Assembly (NCBI GenBank): GCA_030737835.1
Contig: CM060847.1
Coordinates: forward strand, 5,608,484 to 5,672,483
DNA: 64,000 nucleotides
Direction of reading: 5' to 3'
Source of the DNA: Acorus gramineus
Taxonomy: Eukaryota > Streptophyta > Magnoliopsida > Acorales > Acoraceae
Shown here: positions 15,050-63,799 of the stretch, in pieces
Layout of the letters: each line of letters starts with the position of its first letter
Numbering within the stretch: the first letter of the stretch is position 1
Position numbers and translations under genes: made by a program
The notes under the pieces: model-generated
The model's input: the letters and a program-made list of their open reading frames with translations, nothing else
Told to the model about the DNA's origin: nothing
Database searches by the model: none

Positions 15050-16000
15050 ACTCAGGGAAAACCCTAACTTACAATAAAAAAATTCATTACTTATAATATA
15101 AGAGTTTAAACCAAACAAATGGAATCACATACATGGCTTTCAATCCAAAAAATAGAAAACTCAGTTCACCCTCACTCATTAAACAGAAAACTTGCCTCCA
15201 CTGCACATGATGTAATCTTTTACTTTGAACAAATGTAACTTTTCTTTAACTGTTACAAGTAAAGTTGTCCGGAGATAAAGAAAAAGTTAATAAGAAATCA
15301 TGTTAAAAGAATAATGATTTAACATATATCACATGTGATTTAAAAATGTAAACCCCCCCCCCCCCCTTCTCCTTTTTTGACTTTTCTTGACTCTATCTCT
15401 CCTAAAGTACACAAAAACTTCATCTCACTTTGTAAGTCACCCAACCAGACATCTTGTTATATTTATTCACGGGCCCAGATTTTTTTTTTTCCTATTACAG
15501 TGAGGAGGTATTCCCATGTGCGTATCCTTACGAAGGCAGAAATTGTATTTCTAAAATATTTCACATGTCAAAGGATACAAAGTTCCTTAATTGGTGATCT
15601 CCAACCCTAAAACCTTCACTTCTCTAAAAATACCTAAATTCCTATAAAAACCCTAACTTACAAAAAAAAAAAACACCCGTTTTTTGTAATGTAAGAATTT
15701 AAACCAAACAAATGGAATCACACACATGGCTTTCAATTCCAAAAAAATAAAAATAAATCAAACCATACATTGCTTTAACAATATCCTAGCTTCCTATCAA
15801 AACCCTATCTCTGAATCAAAAAAATCTCAATACTTGTAGGATAAGGGTTTTATACCAAACAAATGCAATCACAATCATAATTTGCAATCCAAACAAAAAA
15901 AAAAAACCCGAATCACTCCATTTCTCTAAAAACATCCTAAATACCTATGAAAACCCTAACTTACAATAAAAAAAACCCTCAATAATTAAAAAGTAGGAAG
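15050..16000. repeat. Degenerate direct repeats with ACCCTAACTTACAATAAAAA units
   Basis: Blocks starting near 15058, 15648, 15800 and 15953 repeat the order: ACCCTAACTTACAA, an A run, a TAAGAGTTT or TAAGGGTTT variant, then ACCAAACAAATGGAATCACA and CATGGCTTTCAAT. At least three long and one short copy are present, diverged and interrupted. Their role is unknown; they may be part of a foldback or MULE-like element. Confidence 0.55.
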
Positions 16001-24600: not shown

Positions 24601-27600
24601 ATGACATCCGAGGGAGCTGTATTTCTAGAATTAAAAGTTCCTTCAAGGGCAAGGCTGCGAGATGGATTTTGGAACTTCTTAGGGAAATATGGGTTCCGCC
24701 ATGGTGATGGTTCTCGTCGTCTTTTGCTTCCTTGTGAGGTGCTGTTTGAATCCTCTTTATGTGTACCATTTGGAAAACTCTTTTCAACTGCATTTTAACA
24801 TTGTCAAATTAGTTTTCATTGATTCATATGGAATTTTACCTTACTTTATGGGTTGCCATTTATTTTGATGTCTTGATTTAATGTTATGGTGATTTTTTTT
24901 TACTGTAACCAGCAGAATCCTCTGCTACTGTTTTTTTTATTTTCTTTTTTGTTCTTTGTTGTTTAAGGCTTTGTACCCCTTATTTCAATTTTAATGGAAT
25001 GTGGTGCTAGGTTCCAAAAAAAAAGCTGTTATGGTGGTTTTGGAATATATTAGTGTGCCATAGATCCCTCCCTATGCAGTTAGTTCATTCTTCATAATTG
25101 GTATCAGAATTATTTAAGGCTTTCATAATTGTTTAAGGCTTTGTTTCCTTTTAAAAAAAAATTGGTTCACTACATTTTAAAATAACCACATGTTAACTAC
25201 TTAACTAATTTGATCACTTGCCACGTTTGGAAATGCTGGTGAATTCACTTTTCAGCCTCTAACATGTGGTTTCCATTGGTTATTTCAGGCTCTTCAGATT
25301 TTGAGAGGAATTCCTGAAGACACCAAAAAAAGACTAGCTGGGAGAGGTTACTTCCCTCAAAATGGATTTATTTTGGAATGTCTTCCTGTGCCTCCAAATT
25401 GTTTATATGTTCCGGACACTTCTGATCAAATCAGCATCATGTCTTCAGTAAGATACTCATAATGTGCTTTTCTTTTCCTGATTGTGTGTTTTTAAATAAT
25501 GGCATGTCTGTAATCAGAAAAGTAACCTTTATTTTTTATGCTTTCAAGGACATATCCTTATCCATGCTTAAGAGAGTTCTTAATAAAGTTGAAGTCATTA
25601 AGCGCTCTCGCTCTGGTGCTCCAAATTTTGAGTCTCATGAAGTTGAGGCTAATGATTTGCAGCCAGCAATCGCACAATATATGCAGCTTAGAGGATCCAC
25701 AAAGGTGAAACATTGCAGTACGAAAGGACTCAGTGCTTGGGGGCCTTGCTGTTTCCATTGTTTTATTTGATTACCCTTATTCCCTATTAATATTTTTTTT
25801 TTTTTTTGGTTATTGTTAGTCTCCCAAGGATGTAATGGGAAGATATGGATTTGCAAAGGATGCGAGCAGATCTTCAACAAGAGTCTGGCTGGATAAAATA
25901 AAAACACTGTTTATCAGCAAGGGATCAGGATTCTCCTCCCGCGCAGTTATCACCGGTGATTCTTATAAAGGAATTGATGAAATTGGTTTGCCCTTGGAAA
26001 TTGCGCAAAAGATAACGTTTGAAGAGAGGGTTACTGTACATAACATGAAGCTTTTACAAGAATTGGTTGATAAGAGGTTGTGCATCACATACAGGGATGG
26101 ATTGTCGACATATGCTATTTCAGTAGGCTCCAAGGGACACACATACTTGAAAGTTGGTCAAATCGTAAACCGGCGAGTAATGGATGGTGACATTGTTTTC
26201 CTTAATAGGCCGCCGAGTACACATAAGCACTCACTTCAAGCATTTCAAGTATATATTCATGATGATCACACTGTCAAGATAAATCCACTTATTTGTTCTC
26301 CTCTAAGTGCGGATTTTGATGGTGACTGCATCCATTTATTTTATCCTCAGTCTCTTGCAGCAAGGGCAGAGGCTTTGGAGCTTTTTCATGTGGAACAACA
26401 GTTGCTATGCTCTCACAATGGAAGTCTCAACATTCAGCTTGCAAGTGATTCATTGCTTTCACTCAAATTAATGTTCAAGACACCATTCTTGAACAAAACA
26501 ACAGCGCAACAATTGGCTATGTATGTTTCACACACTCTACCTCGACCGGCTTTATTGAAAAACCGTCATTCGGGGCCATGTTGGACCATATTGCAAATCA
26601 TTCAGAGTGCTTTGCCCCAAAACCTTGACTGCTCTGGTGATCGTCATTTGATATGTGACAGTAATATACTCAGACTTGATTCTAGCAGGGACATGGTTCA
26701 GTCATCGTTTGCTGAAGTCCTTTCATCCATTTTCTTCAAAAAAGGTTCGAAGGAAGCACTTAAATTCATAAATATATTACAGCCATTGCTCATGGAGGTT
26801 TTATTTACGGATGGGTGCAGTATCAGCCTAAAGGATTTTGATGTCCCGAAGACTGCTGTGGAAGAAGTTAAGAAGAATTTTGAGGGAATTTCACCCGTCT
26901 TGGGTCACTTGAATTCGACGTACGATGAACATGTGCAAATTCAAGTGGAGAACTATCTGAAGGACATCAGATTGCCAATTGTGAGTTTCATTACGCAGCA
27001 GTCTGAATTGGGTAATCTTGTAGACTTCAAAAGTGATTCAGCTATTTTGAAGTTAGTTCAGCAGCTTGGATTCTTGGGCCTTCAACTGTTTGATAGGGGG
27101 AGGCTTTACACGAGGGTTTTGGTTGAAGATATGAGTTCTGACATCAAGAGAAAATATTTTGTCCGTGGGGTTGATCACCCGTTTGAGGCATTCGGCTTGA
27201 TTAAGAGCTCCTTTCTTCATGGGCTGAACCCATGCGAAGCTCTTGTGCATTCGATTTCTTCAAGAGAAGGCATTGTTCGGTCATCTAGAGGATTGACTGA
27301 ACCTGGAGTATTGTTTAAGAACTTAATGGCCATTCTTCGGGATGTGGTAATTTGTTATGATGGAACTGTTAGAAATATCTGCAGCAACATAATAATTCAA
27401 TTCAACTATGGGAAAGATGATGATGTGAATGCCTTGCCTGCTGGCGAACCTGTTGGGGTCTTAGCTGCCACTGCAATATCCAATCCTGCTTATAAGGCAG
27501 TTCTAGATTCTTCACCAAGCAATAGCTCGTCATGGGACTTAATGAAGGTAATAGCTATGTTGACTGTTATTTGCAGTTTCTTATATTTCTGGTATTGACA

Positions 27601-31700: not shown

Positions 31701-34700
31701 AATATTGAAGAAGGAATTTTAGTCATTTCCTTTACTCTTTTTTTTTTCTTGGTGACGAGGAACCCAGACATCAGTTGTGAAAACCCTGGATGCACAAAAT
31801 CTCCCACAAACTCTGTGCATCAGCTAATCCCGGGGGGCTTCGAGACCTATGGGAGTGAACCCATGACTCTAGCGAAAGAGTCAGCACAGTGTGGATTATT
31901 GCTTTACCATCATAAATCATGAAATCCATACTTCCTTTGTGTTCTTATCTGTTATGTACTTATAGTATGCTTGATTGTGGGAACACCACCTGGACTCTAT
32001 TGGTTCACAGAGGAAAACTCCAAATAGGTCTAGAGATGAGGCATGTCCCGGTAAAATAGAAAGAAACGGAAAGCAAAGAAATGAGAAACTAATAGAAAAT
32101 AGCCCTAAGAACACAAAGGTTCATTGAGGCTCCCACATTGTGTTTGCAGTTAATGAGTGTGGTTTCTTATGATGCATTAATTTTGGAGAATTGCCCTATT
32201 GATTGGTATAGGTTGTCTTATTCCCCCTAGAACATATGAAAAGAACCATGCACAAAACATCCTTCCCAGTTATAGATAAGTGGGGTTGTTCACTTGGATT
32301 GTAAGATGGTCATGTTTTGGTTCTTGATCCGCTGTTAGGGGCCATTATATGCTCATGATTTTTTTATATGTGTTTTTATTGGTTGGTTTTATTTTTCCAA
32401 CTTAAAATGTTTAACACTTTGTTTTCTGCTTAGACTTTTGATAGTAATTGCCACCAAGGCTTTTTCAAAATTAGTGTTGAAAATGAAAGATTTAGATCTT
32501 TTACATGCGTGAAAGATTGGTTAGTTTTGCATTCCTTTCTCCTTTAATATTCTTATGAAATTTCTTCTCCAGTTTGTTCTACGAACTGGAGAGTGGAGGG
32601 AATCTGAGTGGTTTGTTGTCCTTGCCATTTATCAATGAGATTTCTTTTTTAGTAGGTTTATTGATATGTTTACTTTTAATTTTACAAGCTCTGTGTTTGT
32701 ATTGTTCTGTTTTCTTTCTATTAAATGTTATATATTCTTTTTTGCAGTGAGTGCTGTTGCTTTCATCATGCGTGTGGTGAAAAGTTGTCTCAGTGGCCAT
32801 GTCTGCAGTTTTACTACTATGACCCCAGTGGGGAACTGCATGGAGATTCTCTGGAGGGGATTCTAAAGATTATGGTTAATACAGTTGGCCCAATTTTATT
32901 AGATACAATTGCTAAAGGTAACTCTATAAAGCCTTCCTAATTGTGCAGTTTAATCATTGAAGCATCCTGGTTTATTATTAGATATGAGCTATTGTGTGTC
33001 CACCTGTTTTGGTACATACTCTATAAAGCCCTCCTAATTATGCAATTTATTTATTGAATCATCCTGGTTAATTATTAGATGTGAGCTATTGTGTGTCCAT
33101 GTCTTGGTACACATTTGTTAGGATGACCTGGTCTCATTGCGTGGCACTTCTGGTCAATTTCTCCAAATGTCCTCACTGCTGTGTAGGTGTGTCTATGATA
33201 CACCTGATCAAGTTTCCCTTGATCATGACATCCAGATATCTCCTCAATGGCCTGAGTGCGCCTGATCAAGTTGCCCAGGACTGCTCGGTTTTGTTGTCCG
33301 ATCCCCTTGTTTGGGCGTGTCCCTTGCCCGATTATGTTCTTGCATTCGTGTATGTCATCCTGCCCAGACGTACTCACAAATCTGCGCAAGCGCGCGCTCC
33401 TTGGTGCGCCCCACATGTTTCTTCCTGTATTAGACATGTGAGGGTGTGACAGCTACTTTGATGACTCATTCATTAGGCCATCAATTCGCAGTCAAGACAA
33501 AATATTGTTTTGGAACTGTTGATTGATTGTTTTGTTTCTGTTTATTTTCTACAGTGTTTTTTTTTCTCTGTGACATTGATGTCAAATAAATTATGCAGGT
33601 GACAGTCGAGTATATTCAGCGAATATCATCTGGATTTCTTCTGATTCTCCGACCTGGGTCAGAAACCCATCGAAGGCAGCAAAGGGTGACCTAGCTCTTG
33701 AAGTTATTATTGATAAAGATGAAGTAAAAAGGAGTGGTGATGCCTGGAGAACTGCGTTGGATTGTTGCTTACCGGTGCTGCACTTGATTGACACCAGCCG
33801 GTCGATTCCTTATGGAATCCAACAAATTCAAGATCTACTTGGCATTTCATGTAGTTTTGACGAATCAATTCAGGTAAATGCTATGTATATAGTTGTAAAT
33901 AATTCATGCTTGTAATATATATAATGGAAAGCACATTTAATCAATACTCTACTATATGTCATATGTGATGTATCAAATTTGTCATGCAATATATATTTTT
34001 ATATTACAGCTTATAAGCAATTCCAATTGCATTGTTACGTGGAATGCTTATGCTTGTGAGTTGGGAGGAACAAGGAATTCTGGGCAAGGTTCTGCTCTTC
34101 ATGTATCAAATGGCTTTTATATAGCTTTTGGCCTATAATATGCGTTCTGTAGACCAATAAAAATTATGTGGTCACTTTTCTTCTCTCATTTTTCCATTAA
34201 TCACCATAACAAGTAATAATATCTGTATCTGGCATGCTGGCATAATATGTTTGATTGCTCTCACTGGGTTTCATAGTATAACTCATGAATTTTATTCAAT
34301 GATAGTTTGTGTAGTCCTATATGTTTCTTTTGTTCCTGTATATAGAAACTAAATTGCTTTATCTCCATTCATCAGTACTTGGGTTTTTACTATCACTTTA
34401 AACAACTTTGCTAAATATGTTATTCTCATCTCCAGAACACTTTCAGACTTCAACAGGAATATCATCTTGTCAGCAGATTTTCCAGTTCTCTTCTTTAAAG
34501 CATCTTTATCTTCAATACTTAATATTTTTAACTTTCCTTTACTGTTTATGTCTATGTTTAAATTCTTTGTATTCTTCATGATTTAATAGTTTGCTAAAAT
34601 AGTTTTGGGTTTTTTGCATGTATACCATTCAAAAATATGATATTTATTTTTATACCACTCCAAATAACGTAATTACTAATATCATTGCAATATGTAGAAA

Positions 34701-37700
34701 TTATGCATATTTATCATCCTAGTTAACTTCTATCCACATTTCTATTAAACTTGTTAAAATCTTAAAGAATTGGCCAAATTACCCTTTTTTTTATTTTGCA
34801 TATAAAATTATTTTGCTAAGCCCTTGCTTGGGTAGCGACATTAGCTATTTCGATATAGATAACTATTCTATGATAGCTATACTAGTGGAATAAGCCATTT
34901 TCTGTTTGGTTGTGTTTTTAGTTATTTTCGTTGGGAAACATAATAATAAAGTTATTTTTAGGGGTTTCTTGGAATAAGATTCTCTTATATTTCTTTCAAA
35001 AAAAAAAAAAACATAATAATATAGTTTTTGTTGGTTTTCCACTACCCAAACAGGCCACAAGATAATGTAAAGAGACATTTTTTTTCGCTGTTATTGAACC
35101 CTGCACCTATTGGTCCATTGGGGGAAAATATTGGGAACCCTAATTAATGGATCAAAATAAGGTTTGAAAATCACCTTTGGAGTCTGTTCAGATTTTCACT
35201 GTTTGATCTCCAAAATCAAAACCTGATTTATTGGGTCTTTTGAAATACAAGGAATCCTCATATGTATCATAAGTTATCCAGTTGAATTCTAAACTATCGT
35301 TTAAGAAATTGGTTCATTTTGATTGATATGTGTGACACTATTCCGTATGACCAAAAATGATTTCTTTTTGACATATTGGACCATTTTGGTAATCTGGAAA
35401 TTAATTTGAGATCATCTGATTTTCTGTGACATGACCATTCTTTAACCCCCCCGTTTGGGGTGTGACATAGGGTTATTCGCCCTTGATAGCTATACTGGGA
35501 TAGATAACAATTCATGTTGAATAGGTAAATTTCTGTTTGGTTGTCTTTTCTGTTATTCTCTCATTGGGAAACGTAAAATTGATCTTTTTGTTGTTTGGTT
35601 CACCTTGGATAAAGTAAGGATAAGTGGTAGATAAGAGATGGATAAGAGTTTATGACTTTTTAAATGACAACTATACCCTTGCATAAATTATTTGTGTTTG
35701 GGAATAAGTATGAGAGATGTGTGTGATATGATAGATGTGACAGTTTTTGGAATGTGTGCAGAGAGTGTTAGGCTAGATAAAATTTTTAAAATGACAGAAA
35801 AGGATATTTTTATCCATTGGTATAGATAAGCCTTGATAAGCAATTCCATCATTTTCTTAGAATAGTTATCAGGCCTTATCCTAGCTTATACAGACATAGC
35901 TATCAAGGTTTATTCTTGTCAAACAAACAGCTGTTTGGGGGCTATTCTAATGTATTCTCCCCTATCCATTGTTTATGTTCCACCCCAAACGGGGGGTAAG
36001 AGTGGGCATTCAATATTTATCTGCATTACCCATCCATAATGTGTGATCTGATGTGCGGGCTAGAAAATCCCTCGGTGGTTGGATTTGAACTTTTTAGAAA
36101 ACATAAATTGTGGAACAATGTGGTTGAATCATATGTGCATTTTGAGCAGTGAAATGCATAACTTCTGTAAAGAGCTGGATAGAGAGCATACAGATAGGGT
36201 ATCACGGATCCTCAGCCCTAGGAATAACTTTCTGTGAAGTGCTTTTTAGTCTGATTGAGAAAAAGGTCGCCCGGATCATTTGTGCGGGTATCACGGATCC
36301 TCAGCCCTAGGAATAACTTTTCTGTAAAGTGCTTTTTAGTTTGATTGAGAAAAAGGTCGCCCGGATCATTTGTGCATGACTTCAAAATACAAAAATGTAT
36401 GGGGGACTAATGTACCTCTCAAGGTGTAGGGGTTTTGTGGTTGGTATGCCCAGAAGAGGCTTATGACAAAGGTGTGGTGAATGGGAAACGGGTTTCCATT
36501 ACTTGCATTCTTTCTGGTAATTACAATGAAACAGTTCAACACCCATTCTTCACTGCCTATTTGTTTTATACAAATGTGGTGTAAGCTGGGGGAGGCGACA
36601 TGGATGATCAGAAGCTTAACCTGGACTGTGGGAATCCAGGAAAAGAGCGAGGAAAAAGGTTATGAGCATATAGGCAAAGGTTTTTCTCTTATCCTTATTC
36701 CAGTAGGGTGCTGGGCTGTTTAATTGACAAGGAACGAGGTAACTTTAAATAACATTAACCCCCTATTTCGAAAGCATTTGGGACCGTGCAGTCAGATTTA
36801 TCAAGGACTCGGCTACTCATTGTGTGTGGGAACTAAGTATGCTCTGTAGAGAAGGAATTGGAAATTAGTGGATGGTGGCTGGTGCTGGTGGCTTGGTTTT
36901 GTTTCACCAGTAGACCTCTCATTTACTGGTTTTTCTTTTTCGTTAATTTAATTTTTCCTTTTATTTGGAGTAGTACTCCAATTTAGTTAATGAATTTGGT
37001 GGTAGGATTCCTATCAGTTCTAAAAAAATGCATAATTTCTATGAGTCTGTTGTAAAAAACATCTCTAACTGAAAAGTCATTAACAAAGTTTGCCTGTGAC
37101 AATATGGTCCTCCATTACGTATGCAACTATACTTTCCTGTCATGTTCATTAGGTGGGCATGATTTGTTCTTGAATTTTATTAATATTACGTGGATCCTTG
37201 TATGCCTTCAAAACACTTGAGCAGCTGCATTTTCTTGGAAATTTTATGTCTCCCCACCAAAAAAAATAGAAAAAAACACTCACTTCTCAGTTTGTGGTGA
37301 ATAGTATCAGCAGGCTTATTGATTCATCTGCTGCATTTCGTACGGAATTTAGCATTTTTTCCTTCTCTTCCATTTTTACGGTTGGTCTATCCAAGAGTTC
37401 ATTCAAAATGGCACATTTTTTCTCTTCTCTTCTCCCTTCTCTTCTTCCATTTTTACTTTTCCTCTACTTGTTGCCAAAATTGTTCTTTATTGCACAATTT
37501 TTTGAGGTATTTGTTAGGTAGCTGCCTGTTTCACTTTTTCAATGCTTATTGAAGGTGTTTCTATCTGCTGCTTTGTAGCGTCTCTCATCCATAAAGACGA
37601 TCATGAAAGGTGTACTTAAAGAGCATCTTATACTTGTGGCAAATAGTATGACATGCACCGGTAATCTCATTGGATTCAATGCCAGTGGCTACAGGGCACT

Positions 37701-40700
37701 ATTTCGATCTATGAAAGTTCAAGTTCCATTTACTGAGGCAACTTTGTCTGTAAGAGTTTTTTTTCCATTTTTGATTGCTATGAATTGCTGCTCTTTTACT
37801 TGTCCACTATTCTATTTTTTGTTGTAATGATATGTGCCTTTATGTGCAATTGATGCATGCAGACACCCATGAAGTGTTTTGACAGAGCAGCTGAGAAGTG
37901 TCATGTAGATTCATTATCCAGCGCAGTTGCATCATGTTCTTGGGGTAAACATGTTTCAATAGGAACAGGTGCATCTTTCCAGATCATGTGGAGCCAAAAA
38001 CAGGTAATTTTTTTTTCACAAATTGAACTTTGGATGATCATACTGAATTTCAGTTCTCATAAACATTTCTGCAGAACTTTCAGTTGTCTTTTGATATATT
38101 AGATGCGCATTCCAATTAAAGTCCTTGTTCTTCTTTTAGATGACGCCCATCCACGATGCTGGAAAAAATGTGTATGAATTCCTTCAGTTGGTAAGCACAG
38201 GTTCCAGCCAGAAAGATTTAAGAAGTTCATGTCTGGGTGTAGATGTTGATAATCTTGGAGAAATGGAAAACATGGACCCGAGTTTATCTCCTGAGCATGA
38301 CACTGATTTTGATAAGCCAACATTTGATGATAGTGCTGACTTTGGGTTACACACTAATGGTAGAACTCCAAATGGGAATGAAACAAATGGAAATTCTAAC
38401 TGGGACGATCTTGCTGGAATGCCCGATAAGTCAGATGATTGGCAAGAATGGGGTAATGGAAAGCAACACATTGAAGCCAAGTATAGTGCTCTATCCCATA
38501 CATCTCCAGGTAATCACGATGATGGTTGGACAGGATGGGGTGGTGAACCGCCGTTTGATACAGGTAGAAATGCACATCTAAAATCATCAGATAAGATAGA
38601 TGAATCAGATGGATGGAATAAGGACAAGCAACCTAATGTGGATGATGATAATATGCATAAAAAAACGTCAGTTTGGTCTAGCTGGGATGCCAAGCTGCAA
38701 GGGGGAGATTGTCGACCGACGTTTGGCAAGGTGGATGAGCCTGAACAATCACCTGTTCCAGATGCAAATTCATCGTGGAACAAATTGAAACCATCAAATG
38801 ATGCATCAGATGGATGGAACAAGGAGAAACAACCTAATGTGGATGATGATAAAGTGCATCAAAAATCGTCAGTTTGGTCTAGCTGGGATGCCAAGCTGCA
38901 AGGGGGAGATTGTCGACCGACGTTTGGCAAGGTGGATGAGCCAGAACAATCACCTGTTCCGGATGCAAATTCATCATGGAACAAATTGAAACCATCAAAT
39001 GATGCATCAGGTGGATGGAACAAGGAGAAGCAACCTAATGTGGATGATGCTGATATGCAACTCAAATCATCAGGTTGGTCTAGCTGGGATTCCAAGCTGC
39101 AAGGGCGTGATTGCCAACCGACGTTTGGCCAGGTGGACTGTGAGGTGCAAAGCAGATCGGATGCATGGGATGGACAGAGCTCAGAGAAAGACAAGAGGTC
39201 CTCAAGCAAGTGGAATTTAAACAAAGGCCAGAGTCAGCTTAAACAGCAGATGAGATCATCAGATCGTGGTTCTAATGCAGCTGACCAGGGCAACCTCAAA
39301 AATACTTCTTTGCCATTATGCTCAGATAATCAAAAGAATTGGAATACCAAAGGGATCTATACAGCAACTGGAAAACGCTTGGATTCCTTTACATGTGAAG
39401 AAGAAAATGTTCTTGATGATGTAGACAAGACCATGCATTCTATGAAAAGAATACTTCATCAATCCAGGTCTTGTTTCCATTATCCCTTTTTATTACATGT
39501 TTTATGTCTATATGTGAATTTTTTGTGATATCTTAGCAATATGATCTTCCATATTTCTTACATGCATGCATTCTGAGCAATCGGTGGACTTTTTTTTTTT
39601 TTTTGAATAATTGTCCCTTGACCTCTTTCAAGAAGGTGGGAGGTGCTTGCCGACTTAACCAAAGTTTGGTTCGCTTTGTTTGTTGCATTACTTACTGGTA
39701 GCACGTCTGTTGCATTTTATATTTTTCTTTGTCAGATTGCAATTCTTCTTTATTTATTCCTACACTGAATTAGTATTAATATAGTGATACAGTGTTAGTA
39801 TACTACATTGATTGAATATTTATCATATTGATGATATTGTAACCCCTTTTAAATTTTGAAATGACAACATTTTGGTGACTTGTGTAGGTTTTTCATTAAA
39901 CAGATGAATGAATCTTGTATGGTACTAATACAATTATAAATATTTATTGCTAGAGTGGATCTTTCCAAGTGGAATGTAATTCACCATAATATATAAACTG
40001 ATTTCATATGGAACTAATGTTGGTTTAGGTAACAAATGTTGAAGGATATGCTCACATGATATATTCTCAAGGTCTGATCTATGTTCTCTTCTGACAGAGT
40101 GAATGACTCAACAGGGAGTTGCTTTATGTCACTATGAAATGAGCACTAAAAATATCCAATTACAAGTTTACATATGTAAAATCTGAGGAATTCCTTCTAA
40201 TTGTTGGATTCCAGTGATCACTCACTGTATATATACTTCAGAATATTTCTTTCCATTACAAGCTTCCAACAATGTATAAAGCATGCCATTGTTTGGCTAG
40301 ATTTCAAGTGTTAGGTGTTTCTGTTCATACTATTCAGCTACTCCTAAGGATCAAGTAACAACAATAGGTATGCCATTTATATTGTTGGTTTTACACATAA
40401 GTTCACACTTGCACCATGAGCTGCACTGAGAAGGCAATGTTATACAAAGATGCTTGAAGGTGATCCATGATAGCATTTGTTTGAATGGCTGTGTCACCAT
40501 GTTATTGGAAAACTACAAAGGGAAAGTTGAAAAGTAAATTAGAAGTATACGTATAAGAGTGGACTGAGGACACAAGGAATGTTTTCAAATCAACCCCAAC
40601 TTGCCTTATTATAGGCTCATTCTCCAACGAATATGGATTCCCTCTGAATTTGAACTGTCAGCCTTAGGATGTGGACATATCGGTCTTGTAAGTAGCAAAC

Positions 40701-49099: not shown

Positions 49100-49576
49100 A
49101 TGGGGTAAAGACATCTAAGTCCTCACAAGCAAGAGTAATCCCATATGAATCTTTATCAAAGTTGGGACAGACATATAAGTCCTTGAAAACTCACAAAAAC
49201 TCATATACATCCCTGGTTTCAACAAAAATTAATCATAACTCAACCTACCCTACTTAATTTTAACATATAACTAACAAATGATTAAATTATCATCAAATTT
49301 TTAACAATTTTCAATCAATACATCAATGGAAATGAAGAAACATAAAAAGTCTTATAAAGATAATATGATCTTTGTAGGGATTAATTTATTTTTATGATTA
49401 TTTATGGAGACTATAATATCTATACAATTACATGGTGATAAAATATTCTGTTAAATTTAAATGAAATTTTAACCCGATAATAATAATTAGATTTTTATGA
49501 GTTTTCAGGGACTCATGTGTCTGCCTTAACTTTTATATGGACTTATATGAGATTATCCATGTTTGTAAGGATGCAG
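49100..49576. mobile_element. Foldback-family MITE, short copy 1
   Basis: The left end GGGGTAAAGACATCTAAGTC is mirrored at the right end (GCAGATGCTCTTAAC), and the inverted match runs about 100 bp. It includes GGGACAGACATATAAGTCC on the left and ACTCATGTGTCTGCC on the right. Inside is about one 92-bp-type unit (TGATTATTTATGGAGAC, ATCTATACAATTA). Same family as 52.5 kb and 61.8-63.1 kb. Confidence 0.75.
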
Positions 49577-49733
49577 ATGCTCTTAACACTAAAATAAAAT
49601 AAAATAAAAGGGGGGAGAGAGAGAGAGAGAGAGGAGAGGAGAAGAAGAAGAAGAAGAAAGAAAAAAGAAAAGAAAAGGTAAATTATGACTAGAGCTCACA
49701 AAAAAGAATATTGAAATTAAGAATTACTGCACT

Positions 49734-52480: not shown

Positions 52481-52489
52481 TGAGTTAAA

Positions 52490-52919
52490 GGCATCCAAGT
52501 CCGTGCAAAAATGGATTATCTTATATAAATCCTTATTAAAATTGGGACAGATATATAAGTCTTTGAAAACTTATAAAAACTCATATATATTTCTGGTTTT
52601 AAAAAAAATAATTAATCCTAACATAACCTACCCTACTTAACTTTAATTTATAACCATGAAATGATTAAATTATCCTTATATTTTTAACTATTTTCAAACA
52701 ATTCATCAATGGAAATGAAGAAACATTTTACAAGGATAATTTGATTTTTGCATAGACTAATTTGTTTTTATGATTGTTTATAAAGACTATAATGTCTATA
52801 CAATTATATGATGATAATTAGGTTTTTGTGAGTTTTTAGAGACTTATGTGTCTGCCCCAACTTTTATAAGAATTTATATAAGATTATCCATGTTTACTAA
52901 GATGTAGATCTCTTTAACC
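52490..52919. mobile_element. Foldback-family MITE, short copy 2
   Basis: It opens GTTAAAGGCATCCAAGTCCG and closes GTAGATCTCTTTAACCC as inverted repeats of about 100 bp (GGGACAGATATATAAGTC against ACTTATGTGTCTGCCCC). It has about one internal unit (ATGATTGTTTATAAAGAC, GTCTATACAATTA). Confidence 0.75.
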
Positions 52920-53144
52920 CTGTTATTTTTCAATGTTACCTCTTATCATTTCTAATCTTGTACTCACCCAATAAGTCCTTATCATGCACACCCACACACT
53001 GCATTGCTGGTGTTTTTTTCCTTACTTTATTTTGTATTATTTTATTCTTTTCCTTACATTATTCTGTATTATTTTATTCTTTTCCATTTGTTAATGCTGG
53101 AATATATATATTCCTCGTGCTTCACATGTAACCTTTGTTCTATC

Positions 53145-53266: not shown

Positions 53267-56263
53267 ATGGAATCACCAAATACCAATCAGTACTTCATAT
53301 CTCGCCCTGAAAACTTTGGATCATTCGACCTATGCAAATTTTTTTTCTCACGGAAGTGTCTGTCAACCTATCAGTTCGTGGACACCTCCTCCAAACCTGG
53401 GCCTCCACAATTTAGCTTGATAATTATACTCACCTTGATCCTCGAGAAGATATTATTGTTGATCTATAAACCTTTAAAGTTGTTGGGCAATGTAATCGAG
53501 TTCGTCCTGAACTTCTTTGCACTTAATGGCGGCGTCTTTGGCTTGTTATGGCGTGTTTTAACAGGTATATTATATATTGTTTTGCATGGGAAGAATATGT
53601 ATTATTAATATCTTACCCATCAAATGAAATGCTTTGCTCTCGATCGAACAAGTTATTTATTAATTCGTTCAGTGACATATATATATATATACACACACAC
53701 ACATGAACAATTAATGAAACTAACGAGACGTTTATCATTATTGGATCCTTGCGAGTAAATATAAAGTGTCGGTTGTGAGCCCTGACAAGAACTCGGCCAG
53801 CTACCGTTCGGTCTTGGCTTTCGTGGACTCACGACTTGATCTCTTCCATACGGCCTCCTCATCCAACAAGGTGGACAAAATAAACAACACCTTCAACGCT
53901 GTCGAACCCTTCGATCTCACCATGATGGCCTCCAAGATCGCCTACGAGAACCCTGCCTTTGTTCAGAACGCTGTCGAAAAGCACTGGAAGGTATTAATTT
54001 GTTAATTTTTCTCTCCCTCCGGCTTTTATATGCGAGGAAAATCTTCTTCAACTCCAGTAGATCTTCTTAAAATTACAAAAAGTCTCTCTAAAATAAAAAT
54101 TTATCTTAAGTCCTTATAAAATATATATGGCTAACGAATTTAGTTCCCTGACCAAGAGTATATTGAAATAAGTCCTCAGAAACTTACAAAAATTGGATTC
54201 AGTTCCTATAAACTTTATTAAATCAGATTTAGTTCTTTTGTAAGACAAAAATACCCCCGTCATTTTTCAACATTCTCATCTCCTAAAATGTCATCCTTAT
54301 CTGTAAAAAAAAAATATCGATCAAACCTCATTTGATCTATAAAATTGAGTCATTTTTTAACATTTTCACCTTAATCTCATTATAGAGACTGAACCAAAAA
54401 ATTACAGTTTCATCAATTCCATTACAAAATCAGTAGAGAAAACAATTTAAAAACCAAATCAAAATTCTATAATACATTCTTAACTCTAAATTAGTAGTAA
54501 TAAAAAGCATAACACCTTGATTATAAAACCATATTTTGTTTAATAAAATTTAAATAAATTAGTATATATTTTTAGATAATCACATGGATTTTTTGTGATT
54601 TTAAGAAGATTTCATAGAGTTAAGACAATTTTTAAATTTTACATGAACTTTTTTCAATTTTCAAAAGTTTTCAATGAGTTATATTGATTTTTTTCAATAA
54701 AAAATAAATTTTAAAAGGGTATAACAGTAATTTACCATGCATAGTTAGGGTTAACCACACGTCTAGTTAATTATAGGGATTAAAATAAATATTATTTAAA
54801 AAGATAGAGACATGAAAAAATTTATCAATTTTACATGAATTTTTTCTGATTTTCATATGTTTTCATAAAGCTAGATCAATTTTTCCCTTTATATATTTAT
54901 ATTATGCATTTTAATATGAATGAAATACTTACAAGATACTGCCCTTCATTATTTTTGGCGTTGCAGATGCACTTCGTCAAGTTCTTCAGCTGCTGGAATG
55001 GTAAACTTTTTTGTTTAATTTTTTTTTTAATTTGCACACGTACGTGCGGTCATGTCATGCATATCCTATATTCACCCATGCATGCAAGCACGGGTTGAAA
55101 TTTTTATTTATTTTTATATGCTTATACTATGCATGTTTAACTTTTACTGTGACGTTATCACATCATCTCTCATTGAAAATAAATACAAGTATAACAAAAA
55201 CAAACAGATAATGAATCCGCGTAGTAGTTTCATTTTAATAATTTCATCTCGTTTTCATTTCCATAAATAGGTATTTAAGTAATTAATAATAAAACGTACG
55301 TACTGGCAGAATTCTACAAGGCGAACACTACTCAGGCGTTCATATGCAGCGACAAGGCGAAGGACGCCCAGCTCATCGTGCTCGCCTTCCGAGGCACCGA
55401 GCCCTTCAACTCCCAAGACTGGGCCACCGACGTCAACCTATCGTGGATCTCAACAGGCAAGATGGGCAAGGTTCACATGGGCTTCATGAAGGCCCTGGGG
55501 CTGACTGACGAGCGTGACTTCGCGAAGGGGTTCCCTGCCGAAAGCCCATCGAAGGACCCATCGAAGGCCTTGGCATACTACAGCATCAGAGACACACTGA
55601 ACGCGCTGTTGAAGGAGAACCCAAACGCGAAAGTTCTGATAACCGGGCACAGCCTTGGAGGAGCTCTTGCAACGCTGTTCCCGGCGCTGCTACTGTACCA
55701 CAACCAGACGACCATCCTGAATAGTTTGTTGCACGTGTTCACGTTCGGGCAACCGAGGGTTGGAGATGAAGAATTTGCCAATTTCATGGCATCGGCACTC
55801 ATGCTCAGGTACCGCCATATAGTGTACAGGTACGACATCGTCCCTCGCGTTCCGTTGGACCTTCCCCCTGTCTCCCTCTTCAAGCACTTTGGGGATTGCA
55901 TCTACTACTCAAGTTGGTATGTCAGAAAGGTACGTGCGTACGGAAAGCGATTGATTGATTTGTTTTAATTTGTTCGGCCGGATCATGATTTGATTGATTG
56001 TTTGTATGTAGGCGGTGGACGAAGAGCCAAACAAGGACTACTTCTCTCTGAAATACATACCTTCGATGCACTTTCACGCCCTGGTTGACCTCATCAGGGG
56101 AGTGTTCGCTTGGCTGAAGCCAGGTGTTGAATTCAAGGAAGGACTAGTTTCGATACTGTTCAGGGCGGTAGGGCTGCTCATCCCGGGACTTGCCTCCCAC
56201 AGCCCCAGGGACTATGTCAACGGTGGAAGGCTTTCCAAATTCCATGCTGTCGACTTGATCTGA
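53267..56263 (+). CDS. OBL1: Class 3 triacylglycerol lipase, OBL1-like (oil body lipase), 5 exons, intact
   Basis: Serine hydrolase that cleaves tri- and diacylglycerols at oil bodies; in Arabidopsis and tobacco, OBL1 acts in seedlings and pollen tubes. Exons: 53267-53564, 53767-53990, 54967-55000, 55310-55929, 56012-56263. Phases agree and give 475 residues, close to the family's 460-530. The exon 2 acceptor (TATAAAG) is weak and chosen because it keeps frame. A hydrophobic hairpin at residues 49-75 (FSLIIILTLILEKILLLIY) suits oil-body anchoring. FRGTEPF marks the oxyanion region. GHSLGG carries nucleophile Ser300; Asp361 lies in RYDIVPR and His455 in SHSPRDYVN, completing the triad. Exons are GC-richer than the surroundings. 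Which of OBL1-4 it matches cannot be settled by eye. Confidence 0.92.
54040..54890. repeat. AT-rich inverted-repeat insertion in OBL1-like intron 2
   Basis: AGATCTTCTTAAAATTACAA (about 54058) is mirrored by TTGTGATTTTAAGAAGATTT (about 54595-54614), and TTTTACATGAA.TTTTTTC occurs twice (about 54637 and 54828). This suggests one or two MITEs filling the 976-bp intron. No clean ends. Confidence 0.4.
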
Positions 56264-60789: not shown

Positions 60790-61830
60790 AACGTGAAAAT
60801 GGATTTGTATCAATCTAACTCGACTCAATTAAATTTTTTTTTCAATTAAAATATAAAATATATAAAAAAATGTCATCTGTGGTGATTAATTATTTTTAAA
60901 ATATTAAATTTTAAAAAATAGATTTTATATGATAAATCATGCGATGATATTAAATTAAACTTAAAAAATATTACATTTAACTTATAATTATACAACGACT
61001 TATTAAAATATTTCATATATTTTGTTCGGTTCATATAAATAGAAGAATATTGTTTTAACTTTTTATGTTTAGAACGGGTGTTTTTAAAATTGACAGAAAA
61101 TATAAATATATATATATATATATATTTTTGTTTGAAAAACTCAATTTTTTTTTAATTAGCATTTAAAACAACTTCTAATTGAAAAGTTACCTAAACCCAC
61201 GTGATCCATTCTTGGACTGCAAGATTTATTGCCCATATCAATTCAAAAATCATTAACACCCATTTAAAATTGACATCCTGGATGACCAGGTTGTCTGAAT
61301 CGGACGGACGACCGAAGGGTTTGTTACGTGGACCATCACGGGCTCCCTTTATCAACGAACTCGTTGGGGCCCACACCTAAGGGTTTTTCCCAATTATCAC
61401 CGTCACTTTCAATTTTATTATTTATTTATTATACTATATTTTTACAAAAAAGTATGAGATTGATAGTGCCACTCCTCATCTACACCTCAAATCCACTTCC
61501 ACTTCTGGTTTTCAAATGGGTGGAAGATGGATAGTTAGGAGTGATGAATATCAAGTCAATCTTTTTAACGTTAACGTGTGAGTGAACTTCCAAAACAAAA
61601 CAAAAACAGCAAAAGCGGCGTCACCGACATCAGGGTTGAAGGACAGCCTGTATTGTATGCCAACGTGGCACCCACTACAGTCCCTCCCTGTGTTACACGT
61701 AGCATTCCTTTTTTAATTTTGAATTCCACCATAAAGAAGCTCTATTATTGAATACTGCGTTCATAATTCGCAATCATGCATAAATGCCTTGTTTTTTTTT
61801 TCGGTGGTCGCGAAAGCTTGTTTATTTTTT
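60790..61830. other. Intergenic region, no gene seen
   Basis: AT-rich up to 61190. 61195-61720 is GC-richer, with a CACGTG at about 61198-61203 and ACGTGGCAC near 61664. This could be upstream regulatory DNA for a gene beyond the window, but that is only a guess. Confidence 0.35.
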
Positions 61831-61833
61831 GGG

Positions 61834-63148
61834 TTAAGAGAAATCTAAAGTCCACGCAAACATAAAAAAAAAAAAAAATTATATAAATCCATATTAAAAT
61901 TAGTACAGACGTACGAGTTTTTAAAAACTCACAAAAATTTAATTATTATTTTTAAGTTAAATTTTCATTCAAACTTAATGAAATATTTCAAGAATATTTT
62001 ATCACATATAATTATGTAGATATTAAAGTCTTTATAAACAGTCATAAAAATAAATTAATCCCTGCAAAAGATAAAATTGTCCCTAAAAGACTTTTACATT
62101 AAATTGTGTACACATTGTAATCCCTATAAACAATCATAAAGACAAATTAGCCCCTGTAAAAGATAAAATTGCCTCTGAAAGATTTTTACATTTAATTGGA
62201 TAGACATTACAGTTCCTATAAACAATCAAAAAGATAAATTGATCTCAGTAAAAGAGAAAAATGCCCTTCAATGATTTTTATATTTAATTGTGTAGGAATT
62301 GCAGTCCGTATAAACAATCATAATAACAAATAATATAATTTATTTATTTATTTTTTTATCTTCTATCCTTTCGCTCACACTCCACTTGAACAAGTAATGA
62401 ATAATGCTATTTTTTTAAGGTATTTGCTTACTTTGAAATACCTTCCTAGATACATAATTTTTCACAAAATTTGTTTATTTATATTCAGAGAGAACTTTTA
62501 TAAACCAATACCACTTTTTTTACTTCTCTACAAACAAAAGGTAAAAAGAATGCATCATACGGGTTAAAATATTTTTTTACGTCTAAATTGGGATCTTCAG
62601 ATGGAGTGTAAGTGATATGATAGAAGATGAAAAAATAAATTAAAAAATTATATTATTTGTTTTTATAATTGTTTAGAAGGACAGTAATGTTTATACAATT
62701 AAATGTAAAAATCCTTCAAGGGTATTTTTATCTTTTATAGGGACCAATTTGTTTTTACGATTGTTTATAAAGACTGTAATATCTATCCAATTAAATATAA
62801 AAGTATTTAAAAGGCAATTTCATCTTTTGCGGGGATTAATTTATCTTTATGATTGTTTATAGAGACCGCAATGTGTACACAATTTAATGTAAAAGTCTTT
62901 TAGGGGCAATTTTGTCTTTTACAGGAACTAATTTATCTTTATGACTATTTATAAGGATTTCAATGTTTACACAGTTACATTTGATAGAATATCTTGGAAG
63001 TATTATGTTAAGTTTGGATGAAAATTTAACTCAGGGATGATAATTGAGTTTTTCTGAGTTTTCAAGTACTCATACGTCTGTCACAATTTTAATAGGAACT
63101 TATATAGATTTTTTCATGTTTGCATGGACTTAAATGCCTTTAACCCTT
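61834..63148. mobile_element. 1.3-kb foldback-type element with arms of four 92-bp units
   Basis: It opens GGGTTAAGAGAAATCTAAAG and closes GGACTTAAATGCCTTTAACCC (as two overlapping words). Left arm 61834 to about 62390 and right arm about 62590-63148 are reverse complements along their length. In the left arm the marker CAATCATAAA (or variant) recurs at 62039, 62131, 62223 and 62315. In the right arm the G of TTGTTTA (or the aligned base) recurs at 62671, 62763, 62855 and 62947. All gaps are exactly 92 bp. The inner pair (ATCTTCTATC against GATAGAAGAT) closes the stem on a loop of about 200 bases. No coding capacity. Confidence 0.85.
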
Positions 63149-63799
63149 ATGTTTTTATATTTAATAATGAGAAAAAACAAGAACGTAAGAAAAAAAGCCA
63201 TTCACAACGTGGTAGGTCGTAAACCATTTCACTGAATTTTTAAATATATACATTGAACTGATCTCGTATACTTTGAAATACTGGCTAATAAAAAAGTTGC
63301 TACGAAAAATCAACAATTAGACGTCCTAGATCCTAGATCTATTCTTTAACACAAGAAACTGAATTTTTGTTTTTGTCTTTTTTTAATAAAAAAAAAAGTT
63401 TGTTTTTAACCTGTAAAAAACAAAAGAAAGCTCTGGTAAACTTTTTTTTCACACTCACTCAACCGGTGAATTGTTATTTTATTACTTTTCACAAAAAAAA
63501 AAAAAAAAAATTTTTAATTTTAAGTCACTGTAAATTATATGATTTAGTGATCAATCCCTTATTTTTTTTATATTTTGATTTAAGTCTCCAGGGTATGTTT
63601 CTTTTTAGTTTCTCTCAGGGACTAAAAAGAAAATCAAATAATTTAAAGATAAGTCCCTTCTTACTTACTGTACAGCTCTGTAGCCAAAAAGTAAAAAAAT
63701 TAAAAATGGAAAATACATTTTGCATAGAAAGTGGGTAAAAGAAAAGTTATTTTTCATGGAATGTATCAAACAGAGCATAAATGTAAATCTATGTGCATT

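Follow-up and report, generated by a model that had tools for sequence, protein, structure and literature searches.

MULE-type foldback elements with repeated arms are already known as a kind, although the reason for the internally repeated arms of foldback elements is still argued. A combination of 9-bp target duplications and long inverted ends is the signature of Mutator-like elements (MULEs). Foldback elements of plants include FARE (Arabidopsis), Tnr8 (rice), and SoFT (Solanaceae), and to our knowledge few have been well described. Going by the cited parts of their descriptions, the nearest kin of the element reported here are Tm1, Galileo, Tetris, and the tandem-TIR MULEs. Tm1, a Mutator/Foldback family of root-knot nematodes, is of Mutator type with 9-bp duplications (also reported in that source for Mutator-type elements), MITE-like derivatives, and composite inverted ends with internal tandem repeats (PMC3169594). 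Galileo of Drosophila has long, internally repetitive, foldback-like ends (PMC3573991), in whose tandem repeats further sites for the THAP domain of the transposase have been identified (PMC3688188). The foldback arms of Tetris, from Drosophila virilis, contain internal repeats of ~220 bp, and a stretch of 37 bp is common to these repeats and the terminal domain; tandem arrays of derivatives are described, and the autonomous partner of Tetris was not found (PMC4079207). Tandem-TIR MULEs of tomato, Arabidopsis, rice, and maize carry extra tandem TIR copies and have been amplified, some of them without a gene; in trees, their internal TIRs tend to separate from the external ones, with low support (PMC3310237).

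The element analyzed here lies in a 64-kb stretch of Acorus gramineus DNA (the window) and resembles each of these systems in part. Its tandem unit measures 92 bp and is mostly fixed in number, whereas the repeats of Tm1 are given as 13–15 bp long and variable in number; its ends are symmetric, unlike the asymmetric 7-bp ends of Tm1, and no transposase-encoding group is known for it, in contrast to Tm1 (PMC3169594). Galileo belongs to the P-element superfamily and its repeat number varies within a subfamily (PMC3573991), whereas our family is MULE-like and its repeat number mostly fixed. For Tetris, which like our family lacks an identified autonomous partner and has given rise to tandem arrays, only three structurally complete copies are described and the arrays consist of the internal repeat, whereas here they comprise most of the element (PMC4079207). 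In the tandem-TIR MULEs, the internal copies are recognizable long TIRs and copy numbers reach at most 29, against short degenerate units (~53% like the head) in palindromic arms and about 1,100 copies here (PMC3310237). If MITEs are taken as non-coding, high-copy elements of 600 bp or less with TIRs (PMC12071656), the element is non-coding and high in copy number and, at 1.3 kb, too long; shorter relatives of ~440–670 bp exist. A literature text search with the terminal letters returned nothing related by title among the matches listed, which we do not take to mean absence from print.

The element has a foldback (FB) architecture, in that inverted, internally repeated arms form most of its length (Table 1). 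Two arms of 526 nt (61865–62390 and 62596–63121), separated by 205 nt, are 81% complementary, and when the arm-to-arm match is extended to the element ends it spans 560 columns at 80.4%. Tandem Repeats Finder reports a period of 92 in the left arm (62004–62331, 3.6 copies, 77% matches) as well as in the right arm (62655–62977, 3.5 copies, 76% matches), and the lag-92 self-identity of the two arms is 0.58 and 0.57, compared to means of 0.33 and 0.31 (sd 0.03) over lags 20–299. Each arm is composed of a terminal segment of ~165–175 bp, three 92-bp units, and a 50–52-bp part of a fourth. A self-comparison of the window thus contains both the 92-bp ladder and the arm inversion, and the palindromic arms and the loop of about 200 bases described in the initial annotation are borne out. 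Its statement that each arm holds four units of an exact 92-bp period stands as to the ladder in both arms and the 92-bp spacing, but not as to the unit number (~3.6) or to identity, since the unit sequences differ; its limits (61834–63148) located the element and needed correction to those of Table 1. The designation as a foldback-type element is well founded, given the long repeated inverted arms, the 9-bp duplications in many copies, and the content of open reading frames: only one of at least 40 aa was found, which measures 56 aa and lies inside the loop. Rfam gave no match anywhere in the 64-kb window at gathering scores.

Table 1. Features of the foldback element and its relatives in the window (positions of the window; a dot marks features without strand).
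Feature	Position	Strand	Basis or remark
Complete foldback MULE-like element, 1316 bp	61831..63146	.	GGGTTAA/TTAACCC termini and family alignment
Target-site duplication, 9 bp, left copy TTATTTTTT	61822..61830	.	8 of 9 bases equal to the right copy, counted by eye
Target-site duplication, 9 bp, right copy TTATGTTTT	63147..63155	.	flanking sequence
Left terminal segment of arm (TIR head and linker)	61831..62004	+	
Left arm unit 1 (92-bp period)	62005..62095	+	profile match
Left arm unit 2	62096..62187	+	profile match
Left arm unit 3	62188..62279	+	profile match
Left arm partial unit 4	62282..62331	+	profile match
Loop between arms, 205 nt	62391..62595	.	family consensus here without AGTCCCT motif
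Right arm partial unit 4	62655..62706	-	profile match
Right arm unit 3	62707..62797	-	profile match
Right arm unit 2	62799..62890	-	profile match
Right arm unit 1	62891..62980	-	profile match
Right terminal segment of arm	62981..63146	-	
Related short element, separate subfamily, one unit on one side	49102..49589	.	limits by eye; flanks 7 of 9 alike by eye
Related short element, one unit on one side, duplication TATTATTTT/TGTTATTTT (8 of 9)	52482..52920	.	limits and duplication by eye
Family end sequence GGGTTAAAGRCATCYAAGTCC			

The element belongs to a large family. With the whole element as query, the 398.6-Mb genome yielded 1,904 first-look candidates, and the 40 that were scored were mostly full length. 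A 21-base end pattern, allowing up to two mismatches, matched 2,198 times genome-wide (reversed control: 3); since these are well-kept ends, the genome holds roughly 1,100 or more elements. Patterns for the loop, the centre of a 957-bp class, and the subfamily of the relative at 49 kb matched 206, 507, and 130 times, with 0, 0, and 8 matches of the respective reversed controls. By pairing ends we extracted 54 copies, leaving out those for which no second end was found; one of them (L032) is the same place as another (L024), and L075 and L079, 3% apart, look like a duplicated locus. Target duplications were counted in the 36 of these 54 copies whose two ends each matched at 6 or more of 7 bases, with L032 and the L088 cluster excluded. 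The 9-bp flanks were identical in 21 of the 36 and alike at 8 or more of 9 bases in 28, whereas re-pairing the flanks in 2000 shuffles gave averages of 0.6 and 1.3 and maxima of 5 and 6, respectively; a 10-bp duplication fits one copy and an 8-bp duplication none. The left flanks are very rich in A+T (303 of 324 bases). The long class comprises 33 copies including that of the window, with a consensus of 1,317 bp in which the arms show 96% complementarity over 559 nt. The median distance of the copies from this consensus is 5.6%, and the window copy, at 11.9%, is among the most decayed.

In the consensus, the units resemble weak copies of the ~90 bp with which the element itself begins. The TIR head (consensus 8–100) matches the units ungapped and collinearly at offsets 171 (53%) and 263 (52%), with z about 4; none of 1000 Markov shuffles of the head reached the higher of these two values anywhere in the array, and none of 500 shuffles reached the 52-bp ungapped local match between head and units. 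At 53% collinear likeness the units are too diverged to be called TIR copies in the manner of tandem-TIR MULEs, and for this reason head and units could both simply be built from the same 30-bp motif. What they have in common is an AGTCCCT-like motif with A-rich sequence after it, placed at consensus positions 17, 47, and 77 in the head and 188, 218, 280, 310, 372 and on in the array. Allowing one mismatch, the consensus arms contain 9 and 10 AGTCCCT sites (0.8 expected; maximum of 4 in 1000 shuffles) and the consensus loop none, while the decayed window copy has 6 and 4 left in its arms. Spacings between the sites are 30, 62, and 92, apart from a single step of 111 that leads from the head to the array, and a third, weaker site, GCCCCTGAAAG, read from the alignment, completes a 30/30/32 spacing that sums to 92. 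This spacing of ~30 bp, about three helical turns, would place the sites on one face of the DNA. As a separate feature, consensus 142–160 and its mirror (window ~61981–62000) hold two GAATATTC dyads (GAAnnTTC) per arm, three bases apart, which are absent from the consensus loop; both are kept in at least one arm in 19 of the 33 long copies. We take these dyads to resemble heat-shock elements, with the between-dyad spacing off by one.

Taken as a whole, the element is in our estimate with a probability of roughly 0.68 a decayed non-autonomous foldback MULE whose units form an array of putative extra transposase-binding sites. The best explanation of its 9-bp duplications, long inverted ends, missing coding sequence, and high copy number is a non-autonomous MULE, and it is from these features that we infer the enzyme superfamily. 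Transposase-binding sites are the most likely role of the units, as judged from the motif count, the motif spacing, and the analogy with Galileo and the tandem-TIR MULEs; since conservation between head and units is only slightly higher in the motif columns than elsewhere (7.0 versus 6.5 of 8; for the extended motif columns, p = 0.04), the argument rests mainly on these three. The order of events may have been as follows. A stretch resembling the terminal ~90 bp of a master copy would have been repeated in tandem inside its end, giving a long arm, which would then have become nearly identical on both sides of the master copy. This master and its centre-deleted derivatives would have been moved in trans by a MULE transposase, generating the 9-bp target duplications. 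The units would act as an array of extra putative binding sites for the transposase, with an AGTCCCT-type motif every ~30 bp, and the array could raise the affinity or selectivity for the ends. With full-armed, centre-deleted, one-armed, and short single-unit forms, the family constitutes a large natural series in one genome, which lets a role in transposase binding and a role in silencing be compared by copy number and decay; its points of interest are the fixed array, the likeness of units to ends, and the graded decay.

A role in silencing is the most serious alternative, and one to which we give somewhat less than even odds. It holds that the arms matter mainly as a hairpin transcript that would be diced into siRNAs and silence the family, perhaps together with an autonomous relative, and it may coexist with the binding-site explanation. 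In agreement with it, and with the initial annotation, the RNA of the window copy is predicted to fold as one long hairpin of −551.7 kcal/mol (a value without shuffle control at such length), and the longest perfect duplex per copy measures 21–98 bp, with a median of 38. The loss of cytosines by C-to-T change points in the same direction: averaged over 32 long copies, the loss per C/G site falls from 0.154 (terminal segments) to 0.107 (inner arms) and 0.070 (loop), and the inner arms exceed the loop in 26 of the 32 copies (p = 3e-5). From 180 to 540 bp into the element the rate is 0.10–0.12, and beyond that it is 0.07, the drop lying near the arm/loop border, whereas transversions scatter between 0.017 and 0.045 with no matching step there. 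When matched by trinucleotide to the loop rates, the inner arms show 754 changes against 564 expected and the terminal segments 508 against 281. In a reduced set of 28 copies (five removed, four of them from pairs less than 4% apart and one, L086, as a suspected duplicate of L078), the site-level frequencies are 0.155 (terminal), 0.111 (inner), and 0.072 (loop), with p = 0.001 for inner arms versus loop.

Other observations speak against the hairpin. Private C-to-T changes per site in the same 28 copies run in the opposite order (terminal 0.12, inner 0.18, loop 0.23), which fits recurrent hits at the same sites; shared ancestry or subfamily history may also explain it. Furthermore, arm sequence is far commoner in the genome than loop sequence (2,198 ends versus 206 loop matches), so the same pattern would result, without any hairpin transcript, from small RNAs that act in trans, whatever their origin. 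For Mu killer of maize, a long hairpin diced into siRNAs had been proposed, but PMC3440606 found shorter antisense RNAs unable to form large hairpins and offers another model. The stronger cytosine decay of the arms is therefore compatible with small-RNA silencing and no proof of it; silencing appears plausible, and the predicted hairpin as its source is unproven. We regard as tentative, and on the doubtful side, a joint account in which a helically phased array of putative binding sites, derived from a repeated TIR head (about one putative site every 30 bp, with some 13 positions in each arm if weak ones are included), belongs to the same palindrome that feeds host silencing. If it were true, one structure would both have driven the spread of the family and have marked the arms, more than the loop, for methylation and decay.

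Returning to the non-autonomous MULE, we consider its assignment to this superfamily against the possibility that another superfamily of DNA transposons happens to make 9-bp duplications here, which is unlikely. Both the ~9-bp target duplication and TIRs longer than ~100 bp are MULE features (the consensus arms measure 559 nt at 96%), 21 of 36 copies have a perfect 9-bp duplication while one fits 10 bp and none 8 bp, and the genome is rich in the MULE domain PF10551 (1,162 first-look candidates; all 150 scored pass the cut-off). What gives the other superfamilies some room is that no transposase partner (of the MURA type in MULEs) with the ends of this family was found in the PF10551 loci read, and that similar arms are described for Galileo of the P superfamily (PMC3573991). 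In 30 of the 150 scored loci, no outer end of the family was found within flanks of 1.5 kb, which are too short to exclude a partner; four weak matches to family sequences (22–50 columns) occur in three of the 30 loci, none of them reaching the outer end. One candidate for an autonomous element, on contig C1, was bounded by exact ends at a distance of ~8.2 kb; this pair, the only neighboring + then − pair at 2–9 kb among the 81 exact ends of that contig, looks like two separate elements.

The initial annotation further proposed that the family grows or shrinks by unit number, which we consider very unlikely as a general mode. What sets the main size classes (1317, ~1030, 957, and ~660 bp) apart are deletions in the centre or in one arm. 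The first 100 ends listed of the 2,198 are all exact matches, and 24 neighboring pairs of them gave 14 lengths of 913–962 bp (6 of exactly 957), three of 1021–1032, three of 1305–1317, three of 659–669, and one of 533 bp. Copies of the 957-bp class share the arms of the long class, cut at ~464 and 848–854, and have a new centre of ~24 bp; two copies of 659 and 669 bp (L090 and L091) have one junction in common and have lost most of one arm. When 252 units from 42 copies (32 long and 10 of the 957-bp class; L079 dropped) were compared, the nearest other unit had the same index in 252 of 252 cases, with the partner in the same element in 7 and in another in 245, so units cluster by index and not by element. 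Mean between-element identity is 0.90–0.91 for units of the same index and 0.81 for those of different index. Because every unit matches a same-index unit best, the 92-bp array was fixed before the copies read had spread, and growth by unit exchange is rejected for these copies, rare unit losses aside.

Such losses are the part of the proposal that stands. L016 (1225 bp = 1317 − 92) and L094 lack right unit 2, cleanly in register, the right arms of L022 and L033 are short of one full unit, and L021 has two full units plus a part on each side. Gains are confined to one partial extra stretch (L088_3518); no copy scanned for units has gained a full one. Free variation in repeat number between copies or between arms, a common though not universal feature of FB elements, is replaced here by rare private losses, and differing unit counts between copies need not imply unit-by-unit growth. 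The short relatives that had been noted near 49 and 52 kb are real, each with a single unit in one arm only. The relative at 49 kb falls in a separate, numerous subfamily that has an inner sequence of its own, and that at 52 kb contains the inner pattern of this subfamily at two mismatches; for this reason they are better seen as sister forms than as shrunken copies of the window element. Unit 1 gives the highest score for their single unit, though the margins are small (90 versus 81 and 93 versus 89 bits). Finally, palindromes can be misassembled, but an assembly or chance artefact is refuted by dozens of copies at different places, each with its own target duplications.

Some family members are clustered. 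Three lie side by side within 4 kb at locus L088 (G000:C8:9914700-9919900). Head-to-tail arrays of the 957-bp class occur at L098 (G000:C5:3265700-3269500), with a period of ~947 bp and copies 98–99% alike, and at L099 (G000:C2:9687700-9691700), with a period of ~1.96–1.99 kb and 97% likeness in the stretch read. In both cases a foldback element appears to have seeded a young, satellite-like array. On contig C2, five evenly spaced copies of the 957-bp class are present among the matches listed. A large cluster on contig C1 (~19.0–20.1 Mb) consists of cupin-domain matches, many of equal score, which are perhaps candidate germin-like genes. In the window itself, 25835–27598 and 38140–39528 hold domains of the largest RNA polymerase subunit (Rpb1 domains 2, 3, and 5) and, downstream of these, an open reading frame without Pfam match whose 201-bp tandem repeats contain W and G; together they look like a candidate gene for a plant Pol V (NRPE1-like). 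A class 3 lipase domain (PF01764) lies at 55378–55968, and other local tandem duplications are found at 15622–15984 (151 bp), 32921–33111 (97 bp), and 36197–36375 (90 bp).
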